From NCBI RefSeq assembly GCF_023634025.1, contig NZ_JALJCW010000003.1:310001-374000 (forward strand): a stretch of 64,000 nucleotides of DNA. Direction: 5' to 3'. Shown here in pieces: positions 36,231 through 42,034 of this stretch. Below the pieces are notes generated by a model that saw only the letters and a list, made by a program, of their open reading frames with translations, was not told where the DNA came from and did no database searches. A program made the translations under genes and the position numbers. How positions within the stretch are numbered: the first letter of the stretch is position 1; each line of letters opens with the position of its first letter. Source of the stretch: Hanstruepera flava. GTDB taxonomy: Bacteria; Bacteroidota; Bacteroidia; Flavobacteriales; Flavobacteriaceae.

Positions 36231-36863
36231 ATGACACCTTCCATAATTATTGCTGATGATCACCCACTGATGTTAAGAGGCTTGAATGACTTTCTAGAAT
36301 CAAAAGGCTACAACATTATTGGAAGTGCCAGTGATGGTCAAGAAGCATACAACCTTATAATAAAGTTAAAGCCACAGATAGCCATTTTAGATATTAGAAT
36401 GCCTTATAAAACAGGATTGGAAGTAGCAGAAGAGTGTCAAAAAAATAATATTGAAACCAAAATTATTTTAATAACCTTTGATAAAGGTGAAGCTCTTTAC
36501 GATAGGGCTAAAGATTTAAATGTATATGGTTACATATTAAAAGAGTTTGCCATTGAAGAAATAGAAAAGTGCATTGAAAATGTTAAAAAAGGGAATCCTT
36601 ACTTTAGTGATGAAATAGCCACTTACCTAACCGAATCTATTCCTTTAGCTAAACCTGTGGACATTAAAGGTTTAACTAAATCTGAATTAAAAATACTTAA
36701 GTATATATCAGATAATTATACTAGCCAAGATATTGCTAATACACTTAAAATATCTATTAGAACGGTGACAACCCACAGAAGCAATATCGTACACAAATTA
36801 AAACTAGAGAACCGCCCTTCATCTTTATTTCTTTGGGCTACAAAAAACAAAAACTTATTGTAA
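36231..36863 (+). CDS. orphan NarL/LuxR-type response regulator
   Basis: A 210-residue two-component regulator. The receiver domain is 1-120: acidic pair D9-D10 in IIADDHP, phospho-acceptor D54 in AILDIRMP, Thr in ILITFD, Lys in YILKEFA. The C-terminal LuxR-type HTH is about 147-200 (LTKSELKILKYISDN, then DIANTLKISIRTVTTHRSNI). No histidine kinase gene adjoins it. The stop codon overlaps the first of three palindromes that occur at fixed distance upstream of -7-like elements in the next 310 bp. The regulator is the obvious candidate to bind them: NarL-type proteins bind inverted 7-bp half-sites spaced by 2 bp, the geometry seen here. Confidence 0.92.
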   Translation: MTPSIIIADDHPLMLRGLNDFLESKGYNIIGSASDGQEAYNLIIKLKPQIAILDIRMPYKTGLEVAEECQKNNIETKIILITFDKGEALYDRAKDLNVYGYILKEFAIEEIEKCIENVKKGNPYFSDEIATYLTESIPLAKPVDIKGLTKSELKILKYISDNYTSQDIANTLKISIRTVTTHRSNIVHKLKLENRPSSLFLWATKNKNLL

Positions 36864-36914
36864 AAAATACGTACAAGTACGTATTTTTTAATACCTCATT
36901 ATTATGTAATTTTA
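36862..36914 (+). promoter_or_regulatory. palindromic activator site plus -7 element, module 1
   Basis: A perfect inverted repeat with 13-bp arms (A6-TACGTAC / GTACGTA-T6) around a central AA occupies 36862-36889. A TAATTTTA element (36907-36914) starts 31.5 bp after its centre. No TTG stands at -33. The centre would lie near -42 of a start around 36921, the class II activator position. The palindrome could also terminate the response regulator transcript. Confidence 0.72.
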
Positions 36915-36920
36915 CATTGC

Positions 36921-36989
36921 TATTAATCAAGTTCTATATTTAGGGAGAACTTAAAGGCTTTGAAGCAAATTGTTTTGAAGCCTTTTTTT
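36921..36989 (+). ncRNA. predicted small RNA 1 (about 69 nt)
   Basis: The unit begins 7 nt after the -7 element with TATTAAT. Hairpin A follows (AAGTTCT 36929-36935 with AGAACTT 36946-36952, 10-nt loop ending AGGG), then at once an intrinsic terminator (AAAGGCTT 36953-36960 with AAGCCTTT 36978-36985, run of seven T). There is no ATG or reading frame. It is a sequence and layout relative of the unit at 37052-37117. Transcription itself is inferred. Confidence 0.66.
36953..36989 (+). terminator. intrinsic terminator of small RNA 1
   Basis: An 8-bp stem AAAGGCTT/AAGCCTTT with a 17-nt loop, followed by T7. Confidence 0.75.
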
Positions 36990-36992
36990 ATG

Positions 36993-37045
36993 AAAAAATA
37001 CGTATAAGTACGTATTTTTTTTAGGTGTAATTCACCGTACATTTA
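36993..37045 (+). promoter_or_regulatory. palindromic activator site plus -7 element, module 2
   Basis: A6-TACGTAT-AA-GTACGTA-T8 (one inner mismatch compared with module 1) is centred at 37006.5. TACATTTA at 37038-37045 starts exactly 31.5 bp after the centre. It has no -33 TTG. Confidence 0.72.
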
Positions 37046-37051
37046 CACTGC

Positions 37052-37117
37052 TATTAATTATTACAGGGAATTGTTAGAAGCTCATTACTATTGAAAAGGT
37101 TTTGAGCTTCTTTTTTT
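37052..37117 (+). ncRNA. predicted small RNA 2 (about 66 nt)
   Basis: The unit begins with the same TATTAAT, 7 nt after its -7 element. A weak hairpin follows (AATT 37056-37059 with AATT 37069-37072) whose 9-nt loop ends CAGGG, comparable with the AGGG loop of unit 1. A terminator (AGAAGCTCA 37076-37084 with TGAGCTTCT 37103-37111) ends in T8. It has no ATG. It is a paralogue in layout of small RNA 1, with a diverged terminator stem. Confidence 0.64.
37076..37117 (+). terminator. intrinsic terminator of small RNA 2
   Basis: A 9-bp perfect stem with an 18-nt loop, followed by a T-run to 37117. Confidence 0.75.
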
Positions 37118-37119
37118 AT

Positions 37120-37172
37120 AAAAAATACGTATAAGTACGTATTTTTTATACAATAAATACATCATAAATTTA
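37120..37172 (+). promoter_or_regulatory. palindromic activator site plus -7 element, module 3
   Basis: A5-6-TACGTAT-AA-GTACGTA-T6 is centred at 37133.5. TAAATTTA at 37165-37172 starts 31.5 bp after the centre, the same spacing as in modules 1 and 2. The predicted start near 37179 leaves a leader of about 16 nt before the small membrane protein ATG at 37195. Confidence 0.72.
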
Positions 37173-37194: not shown

Positions 37195-37323
37195 ATGCCT
37201 GAACTACCAGAAGACAATTATATTATGGAAACAAATAGCAACAAAAACACGTTCTTTATAATTGGATTAGTAATAGTTGTGATTACTGTAATTTCAATAA
37301 ATATTCTTGTTAGTTTTTTTTAG
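37195..37323 (+). CDS. 42-residue single-pass membrane protein
   Basis: The frame starts MPELPEDNYIMETNSNKN and continues into one hydrophobic helix (about 20-42, FFIIGLVIVVITVISIN) before TAG at 37321. A second Met at residue 11 is an alternative start. The acidic, polar N-terminus should face the cytoplasm or be short enough to insert either way; topology is not certain. It follows activator module 3 with a 16-nt leader and is followed by a strong terminator at 37340-37371, so it has its own transcription unit. I know no family for it. Confidence 0.7.
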   Translation: MPELPEDNYIMETNSNKNTFFIIGLVIVVITVISINILVSFF

Positions 37324-37339
37324 TTAGTTAGTTACAAGA

Positions 37340-37371
37340 AAAAAGCGCCAACTAAATAGTTGGCGCTTTTT
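37340..37371. terminator. bidirectional terminator between the small membrane protein gene and odhB
   Basis: AGCGCCAACT-AAAT-AGTTGGCGCT with A-rich and T-rich flanks on both sides. It serves the plus-strand small gene and the minus-strand odhB, whose stop is at 37389. Confidence 0.9.
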
Positions 37372-37388
37372 ATTTTTTTGTTTAAATG

Positions 37389-38606
37389 TTATAATTCCAA
37401 CGCTTTTTTAATGTTGTTATCCATTAACAACTCGGTTGGATTTTCTAAAGCTTCCTTAACGGCAACTAAAAATCCTACAGATTCTTTACCATCAATAATT
37501 CTATGATCATAAGACAATGCCACATACATGATTGGTCTAATCTCAACCTTACCATCGATTGCAACTGGCCTTTCAACAATATTGTGCATACCTAAAATGC
37601 CACTCTGTGGAGGATTAATAATTGGAGTAGATAACATACTACCAAAAACACCACCATTAGAAATAGTAAATGTTCCTCCTGTCATTTCATCTACTGTAAT
37701 TTGACCATCACGAGCACGAATGGCCAATCGTTTTACTTCGGCCTCCACACCTCTAAACGTTAATTTTTCAGCATTTCGAATAACAGGCACCATAAGTCCT
37801 TTTGGCCCAGAAACCGCAATAGAAACATCAACAAAATCATAACTAATCATTTCCTTACCGTCTATCATTGAATTCACTGCAGGATACATTTTTAACGCTC
37901 TAACAACAGCCAAAGTAAAGAATGACATAAAGCCTAAACTCACACCATGTTTTTCTTTGAACGCTTCTTTATATTCTTTACGTAAGGCAAAAATAGGAGA
38001 CATATCTACCTCATTAAAAGTAGTCAACATTGCCGTTGTATTTTTAGCTTCCACTAAACGCTCTGCTACTTTACGTCGAAGCATAGACATTTTACTTCTT
38101 GATGTACCTCTTCCTTCTACATTTACTTCTTTGCCCATTGAAGGAACAGCTTTAACGGCATCTTCTTTAGTAATTCGGCCATCTTTACCTGTGCCAACAA
38201 CATTTGATGCTGTTATATCTTTTTCAGCTAATATCTTCTTTGCAGCCGGACTAGCGGTGCCTGTCGCATAATTATTGCTCTTATTACTTACAACTGCAGT
38301 TTGAGTTGGTGCTTCTGAAGCCTTATCCTTATTATCTGAAGTAACAGAAGCTTGACCTTCTGGTTTTTCAGCACTAGTATCAATAAGACACACTACCTGA
38401 CCTACAGCAACGGCATCACCTTCTTCAGCTTTTAATGTAATTGTCCCACTTGCTTCTGCCGGAAGTTCTAATGTAGCTTTATCGCTATCTACTTCTGCAA
38501 TGGCCTGATCTTTTTCTACGTAATCACCATCTTCTACTAACCAAGTAGCAATTTCAACTTCTGTTATAGATTCCCCAGGTGAGGGAACTTTCATTTCTAA
38601 AATCAT
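37389..38606 (-). CDS. odhB: 2-oxoglutarate dehydrogenase E2 (dihydrolipoyl succinyltransferase)
   Basis: A 405-residue E2 subunit of the TCA-cycle complex. The N-terminal lipoyl domain (1-75) carries the lipoylated Lys in DSDKAT. A flexible Ala/Ser/Thr linker follows, then an E3-binding domain (about 118-155, [13 protein letters not shown]) and the catalytic domain with HxxxD in [10 protein letters not shown] near the C-terminus. It is 28 bp downstream of sucA in one operon. Confidence 0.97.
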
Positions 38607-41500: not shown

Positions 41501-42034
41501 ATGAAAAAGAAAACTCAAAGTAACCCATTAAAAAAAACAAGTATTTTTCTTGCGCTTTTTTTCGGATTGATATTTTCTGTACAGTCGCAAAGTAAAAGTG
41601 AATTTTGGCAACATGTTGCTTTTGGAGGTAGTGTTGGATTAAGTTTTGGCGATGGCTTTTTTGGTGGCACTATTGCACCAAGTGCTATCTACCGATTTAA
41701 TCCAAGATTTGCCATGGGTATAGGTGCCAACTACACGTATAATGAAGAAAAGAACTTTTACAGATCATCAATTATTGGAGGTAGCTTAATCGGTTTATTC
41801 AACCCCATACCACAGTTACAACTTTCAGCAGAATTTGAACAATTAAATGTGAATAGGAATTATAATAACTCCACGCCTTTTTTAGACGAAAACTACTGGT
41901 ACCCGGCTTTGTTTCTAGGTGTTGGTTATAATGCTGGGCCTGTAGCTATGGGAATACGCTTTGATGTTCTTTATAATAGAGACAAGAGTATTTATGCTAA
42001 CTCTTGGGCGCCTTTTGTAAGGGTTTACTTTTAG
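41501..42034 (+). CDS. outer-membrane beta-barrel-like protein next to sucA
   Basis: A 177-residue exported protein. The signal region is KKTSIFLALFFGLIFSVQSQS, then glycine- and aromatic-rich strands (FGGSVGLSFGDGFFGGT, IGANYTYNEEKNFY, LGVGYNAGPVAMGIRF) ending in an aromatic FVRVYF, typical of small outer-membrane barrels. Relatives in flavobacterial genomes are sometimes labelled alpha-ketoglutarate decarboxylase. Nothing here supports an enzyme; the label probably arose from its location beside sucA. Its stop overlaps that of the convergent gene at 42031. Confidence 0.85.
   Translation: MKKKTQSNPLKKTSIFLALFFGLIFSVQSQSKSEFWQHVAFGGSVGLSFGDGFFGGTIAPSAIYRFNPRFAMGIGANYTYNEEKNFYRSSIIGGSLIGLFNPIPQLQLSAEFEQLNVNRNYNNSTPFLDENYWYPALFLGVGYNAGPVAMGIRFDVLYNRDKSIYANSWAPFVRVYF

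Follow-up and report, generated by a model that had tools for sequence, protein, structure and literature searches.

The question raised by this locus is what a lone response regulator might control through three near-identical palindromes located behind its gene. The window, a 64-kb (64,000-nucleotide) stretch from the genome of the marine bacterium Hanstruepera flava, carries on its forward strand a gene (36231-36863) for a 210-aa NarL/LuxR-type response regulator, a putative activator assigned from its Pfam domains and its orthologues. The product showed the NarL/FixJ arrangement of a receiver domain (Response_reg, PF00072, 7.2e-24) and a LuxR-type helix-turn-helix (GerE, PF00196, 2.3e-13). 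The first-pass annotation had described this regulator as an orphan, and indeed no kinase was found among the genes at about 32.9 to 42.0 kb; a 177-aa ORF at 41501 gave no Pfam match. The upstream neighbour of the regulator is a retropepsin-like aspartyl protease gene (PF13650; 35543-36175), and by eye a protease-like upstream neighbour was also present in loci L247, L248, L252 and L253.

Inspection of the region downstream of the regulator revealed TACGTAYAAGTACGTA at 36868-36883, 36999-37014 and 37126-37141, and the palindrome centres given by the first-pass annotation were therefore right. A TAnnTTTA element lies 31.5 bp past each centre, as had also been claimed: box 1, TAATTTTA (36907-36914); box 2, TACATTTA (37038-37045); and box 3, TAAATTTA (37165-37172), with at, ca and aa, respectively, at the two variable positions and all three on the forward strand. 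The 7-2-7 form of the palindromes fits the inverted 7-bp half-sites of NarL/FixJ-type regulators, and each is a putative site for the adjacent regulator. In Flavobacterium psychrophilum, the promoter box is located at -12 to -5 relative to the start, according to the part of the source available (PMC9723704). This spacing places the predicted starts at 36919, 37050 and 37177 and the palindrome centres at -43.5. The statement that these promoters lack a TTG at -33 holds for the three in the window and fails as a general property, since among the relatives' loci listed a TTG at -36 to -30 was found in 14 of 49 same-class promoters and in 20 of 20 promoters of a second class, which belongs to a PAS-LuxR regulator. 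The pattern TACGTA-N4-TACGTA occurred three times in the window, each time with a box at 31.5 bp, and 200 first-order Markov sequences of 64 kb contained neither a palindrome nor a palindrome with a box. A laxer control, in which the 16-mer was allowed up to three mismatches, gave 7 matches, where shuffled sequences had a mean of 1.63; a count of 7 was reached in 1 of 100 shuffles.

To compare the promoter geometry across relatives, loci were chosen by regulator orthology alone (L001-L018, 44-100% identity; L098-L122, 66-72%) and read downstream of the regulator. The palindrome promoter was present in all 43 loci, at 99 sites with TTTR required at the fixed offset; the palindromes were thus neither absent nor unspaced in close relatives. 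The motif GCTATTAAT was found at +1 in 80 of the 99 sites, and the other 19 include peptide promoters and degenerate copies. Both the RNA model and the contig scan used below contain GCTATTAAT, and its conservation was therefore judged on the regulator-chosen loci only. The information content in these loci was 0.07-0.81 bits from -29 to -13 and 1.24-1.66 bits from +1 to +9. When the box requirement was dropped, 78 of 83 palindromes had a box at exactly one distance; seven other distances were represented by one case each. The five misses were L018, with a box at 34.5, and four palindromes resembling odhB coding sequence. This comparison of relatives bears out the proposal of a fixed palindrome-box spacing across a diverged spacer. 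The association of site, geometry and regulator also supports the idea that the regulator activates three tandem promoters, although binding and activation are judged here from sequence. The promoter was absent from 12 more distant homologue loci (L019-L030). Six stretches with paralogues of 40-45% identity were also examined; a variant palindrome, TACGTA-N4-TACG[TC]A, was located close behind the stop of the paralogous regulators in L241, L242, L243 and L245, none was seen in L244, and in L246 a different ORF was taken.

With its flanking A-run and T-run, palindrome 1 spans 36862-36889, and it can form a 12-bp hairpin (z -4.32); it starts at the stop codon of the regulator. The palindromes could accordingly be terminators of upstream transcripts, built from an A-run, a hairpin and a T-run, rather than operators. 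This reading does not explain the box at a fixed distance downstream, nor the presence of another palindrome in the equal place at PAS-LuxR loci; moreover, the unit RNAs described below finish in hairpins of their own ahead of sites 2 and 3, and the palindromes were not listed by the terminator scan, which demands three G-C pairs. We regard it as extremely unlikely, and it is possible that site 1 is both operator and terminator.

Boxes 1 and 2 each precede a unit (71 nt and 68 nt, respectively) composed of GCTATTAAT, a hairpin, a terminator and a T-run. Promoters 1 and 2 are each predicted to drive a small RNA of ~70 nt, a product that the first reading of this DNA had overlooked. Predicted small RNA 1 (36919-36989, forward strand) starts with GCUAUUAAU and contains a hairpin at 36929-36952 and a terminator at 36953-36985 followed by the T-run; it is called from its fold (z -3.80), from the terminator scan, which listed its terminator, and from its conserved family. 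Predicted small RNA 2 (37050-37117, forward strand) has the same 5' end, GCUAUUAAU, with a weak hairpin and an interrupted terminator stem before the T-run. It is called from its fold (z -2.87; 2 of 200 shuffles folded equally well), and its terminator was missed by the scan. No Rfam family fitted the RNAs, either in the window (E <= 1) or at 13 loci (gathering threshold). Sub-threshold Rfam matches within 37290-37489, positioned around the terminator behind the peptide, look like chance.

Box 3 is followed by a short leader and then by an ORF encoding 32 or 42 aa, and promoter 3 is predicted to drive a ~32-aa peptide with one helix, which had likewise been overlooked. The micropeptide gene (37225-37323, forward strand; 42 aa if the start is at 37195) would encode a single hydrophobic helix and is supported by the relatives' peptides and by a dN/dS of 0.05-0.29 in 10 within-genus pairs. 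A terminator hairpin listed by the scan (37340-37371, no strand assigned) lies behind it towards odhB, and odhB and then odhA follow in convergent orientation. Pfam gave no match to the 42-aa form and NCBIfam none to the 32-aa form. A hydrophobic small ORF between the regulator and odhB (or within 1 kb) was found in 60 of the 67 loci listed, five of which were fetched twice (L003/L178, L006/L162, L013/L180, L014/L181 and L017/L195 are likely the same loci, which affects the peptide-ORF counts only). A motif like FIIGL...ISINILV was common to most of these ORFs, and the one in L176 seems spurious. The odhB gene was at the expected place in 52 of the 67 loci listed, and some of the remaining stretches end early. 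In L010 and L012, the regulator, site and peptide were present and the RNA was absent; the regulator and the peptide may therefore be the older core.

The same two loci, with site and peptide only, would also suit a model in which the units are tandem leader or attenuator copies of the micropeptide mRNA, not trans-acting RNAs, and only the peptide matters. Several relatives, among them L006, L007 and L013, point in that direction as well, as their peptide ORF lies behind a unit with a matching 5' end and hairpin and a partly weak terminator. In the window, however, units 1 and 2 each have their own promoter and terminator and end 8-9 bases before the next palindrome, and the PAS-LuxR loci that were read by eye contain one unit followed by a convergent gene, not by a peptide. 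We consider the leader model unlikely, and separate small RNAs the better account of the two units.

A 14-sequence alignment of the RNA revealed double-sided changes in 12 of the 13 pairs of the terminator helix, in which 95.1% of cells pair; slid versions of the helix reached no more than 59.2%. Hairpin 1 showed zero double-sided changes, and L239 and L240 lack the AGGG loop. The RNA model matched 142 of 397 family genomes and 101 of 237 genera at E <= 0.01, with up to nine matches per genome; matches near 0.01 include some chance, and 95 of the 397 genomes matched at 1e-6. The regulator matched 175 of the 397 at E <= 1e-40. When the thresholds were set at 1e-6 (RNA) and 1e-50 (regulator), 88 genomes had both, 7 had the RNA only, 65 the regulator only and 237 neither (Fisher 3.6e-37, kinship ignored). 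Sampling across the order gave RNA matches at 1e-4 in 5 of 296 genomes, all five from the window's family.

We inspected the seven genomes with the RNA and without the regulator at these thresholds (L247-L253). A PAS-LuxR gene and its site were present in L249 and L250, and in L253 the regulator was split into two ORFs. In L247, L248 and L252, the RNA and TACGTA-like sites were present, and the stretch from the protease-like neighbour to the RNA contained no regulator; a paralogue may act there, or the sites may be relics. L251 had the RNA alone, without palindrome or regulator. Elsewhere, L137 showed an intact regulator with one decayed site; by eye, L151 lacked the regulator and had a decayed site, and in L166 the PAS-LuxR gene was seemingly interrupted and the site was too near the box.

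The RNA core was also found beside a second class of regulator. A scan of species genomes for this core gave at least 116 stretches, and the 80 loci listed include Algibacter, Formosa, Olleya, Hyunsoonleella, Tamlana, Jejuia and Seonamhaeicola. Among these 80, the ORF directly upstream of the core was an orthologue of the window regulator in 49, a PAS-LuxR protein of 256 aa in 20, a different ORF in 9 and none in 2; a few of these ORFs are fragments at contig ends. The PAS-LuxR reference protein matched GerE (3.2e-15), with a PAS_3 match just under the cut-off. The site was of the TACGTA type at 48 of the 49 window-orthologue loci and was TACTCAAWTTGAGTA at all 20 PAS-LuxR loci, so that regulator class and site class agreed at 68 of 69 of the loci listed, with zero crossover. 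The centres were at -43.5 for the TACGTA type and at -43.0 for TACTCAAWTTGAGTA; the survey of centres took the best-scoring palindrome and includes some false centres, and class agreement was tested at the fixed position +-2. Seven second units had GCTATTAAT one base later (44.5); by eye, their box was at the usual distance. The first 28 RNA bases were common to both regulator classes and divergent afterwards, with the qualification that 21 of the first 23 were preset by the core scan. Where the neighbouring LuxR-type regulator was different, the palindrome was different too, and the position and the RNA core were constant. When sought by protein alone, the PAS-LuxR gene was found in 2 of 10 genomes and was absent from the window's own genome; both genomes carry TACTCAAATTGAGTA and GCTATTAAT and lack the AGGG loop. 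Of the 11 loci with another ORF or none upstream, L178, L179 and L193 appear to be truncated members of the two classes, and L134, L144, L170 and L173 had TACC...GGTA palindromes at -43.5; by eye, a GerE-like gene lies downstream in L134. RNA-core copies adjoining sensor-kinase or response-regulator genes were observed in L127 (second copy), L173 and L200; the first two have TACCAA...TTGGTA palindromes, and L200 has neither site class. In L184, a PAS-LuxR fragment, a TACTCAAATTGAGTA site and the RNA lie directly before an odhB-like gene, a place that usually belongs to the response-regulator branch.

Sequence comparison supports the palindromes, their geometry, the RNA family, the conservation of the peptide and the agreement between regulator and site class. 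From these we infer binding, activation, transcription starts, pairing, targets and feedback. We propose, with a probability of about 0.72, that LuxR/NarL-type activators bound close to -43.5 turn on sibling small RNAs and, in the branch represented by the window, also a membrane peptide that possibly acts in feedback. The NarL-type regulator would bind the three 7-2-7 palindromes and, bound at about -43.5, would activate three tandem promoters, each with just a -7 box at this locus. Two promoters would yield small RNAs of ~70 nt that start with GCUAUUAAU and stop at intrinsic terminators, and the third would yield the ~32-aa membrane peptide. The small RNAs most likely act in trans, with the exposed 5' end or the AGGG loop pairing with mRNAs. 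A membrane kinase may be the target of feedback by the peptide, a guess drawn from the peptide's place and its helix. The 28-nt 5' module is found elsewhere under other LuxR-type regulators and thus looks like one output with several inputs. More broadly, we suggest tentatively, at slightly less than an even chance, that a widespread unnamed small-RNA family of the Flavobacteriaceae is a shared post-transcriptional output, connected one unit at a time to several different LuxR-type regulators, whose individual palindromes occupy a common promoter position, and joined in the response-regulator branch by a sensor-feedback membrane micropeptide.

A search of 8 genomes for the 12-base complement of the RNA 5' end gave 28 places, of which, counted by locus, 14 were not antisense to an RNA copy; the tally of 18 skipped places includes neighbouring RNA copies seen twice. 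No gene recurred across genera in these 8 genomes; one place was just before an accB-like gene in one genome, and two were in the same 3' region of two congeneric species. CsrB and RsmY RNAs act in another way, by titrating CsrA, and the RNAs of this family might similarly titrate an RNA-binding protein through an AGGGA loop. Many copies do have a purine hairpin loop, and there are several copies per locus; however, each RNA carries a single motif, which is absent in L239 and L240, and CsrA was over the Pfam cut-off in 0 of 40 genomes, the window's own included (one sub-threshold match, G051). We find titration very unlikely; a protein other than CsrA could possibly be the one titrated. Searches for further RNA-binding proteins found Hfq in 0 of 21 genomes and RRM_1 in 0 of 13 family genomes and 2 of 21 over all.

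We compared this arrangement with known systems. At E. coli ogt1052, one 7-2-7 site, which has its centre at -44.5 and lies 32 bp before the -10 element, is enough for NarL-dependent induction, as stated in the accessible portion of the report (PMC9314961). The present loci likewise have one 7-2-7 inverted repeat at a similar promoter position; in contrast to that sigma-70 promoter, the centre is at -43.5, the box is of the Bacteroidota type and the products are predicted small RNAs. The streptococcal csRNAs, in the available part of their description, comprise 2-6 related RNAs per genome, each with a CiaR site, a box at a set distance and a terminator (PMC3091779). The system described here resembles them in kind, in that a regulator site, a spaced box and a terminator would yield several short RNAs; regulator, site, RNA and peptide differ. 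CiaR recognises the direct repeat TTTAAG-N5-TTTAAG, whereas here the repeats are inverted TACGTA repeats of the NarL type, and the RNA, the tandem array beside the regulator gene, the micropeptide and the second regulator class also set it apart (PMC3091779, same part). The Bacteroides RNAs FopS and GibS are similar as paralogous Bacteroidota RNAs of ~65-70 nt with a common 5' part; in the text at hand, pairing at mRNA starts is a feature of FopS and GibS, FopS RNAs pair through the 5' part near susC starts, and their promoters are called canonical sigma-ABfr with the regulator unknown (PMC11697453). Rfam GibS gave no match at the window RNAs (E <= 1) and none at gathering in 13 loci, and its sole match in the window was sub-threshold on the minus strand (37336-37433). 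Unlike the FopS/GibS setting, RbpB-type RRM_1 proteins were not found in the 13 family genomes. LuxO of vibrios is a sigma-54-class regulator. The Qrr RNAs are also siblings activated by one response regulator, LuxO, but, in the portion of the source covered, they are distal, not tandem, and the regulator type and RNA differ (PMC4211561). Rfp18 of F. psychrophilum is another conserved flavobacterial small RNA; it pairs through a third stem-loop, whereas RNAs of the window type have two, a distinction drawn from the available part of its description (PMC9723704).

Searches of an open-access library, without subscription journals or supplements, showed no paper on this regulator/RNA/peptide system, and a transcriptome table might list the RNA without naming it. 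To our knowledge, a regulator has been assigned to few of the small RNAs in Flavobacteriaceae. This locus combines a regulator and a defined site with a conserved 5' end and exactly predicted starts, so that its regulon and pairing become directly testable, in a group without detected Hfq (0/21) or CsrA (0/40). It also offers a clean case of rewiring, in which one RNA core stands beside different regulators and the site changes accordingly. In addition, a conserved membrane micropeptide is linked here to a response regulator that lacks a neighbouring kinase gene. If the proposal is true, a modular control layer with many inputs and one RNA would operate in bacteria without detected Hfq or CsrA.

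Two further exact sites with palindrome and box were observed in the window's own genome, at G000:C4:90558 (L046) and G000:C5:25946 (L051), which by eye precede an HTH-like gene and a lipoprotein-like gene, respectively; both are candidates for further members of the regulon. At G000:C1:64119 and G000:C2:1166-1338 (L055 and L058), the same palindrome, with unchanged spacing to a TAnnTTTG box, stands at the head of a repeated element that reaches ~170 bp and is located before varied accessory genes. Similar palindrome-headed elements were found in G001-G004 (L048, L052, L053, L054 and L059). This element looks like the head of a mobile cassette and may be under the control of the window regulator.
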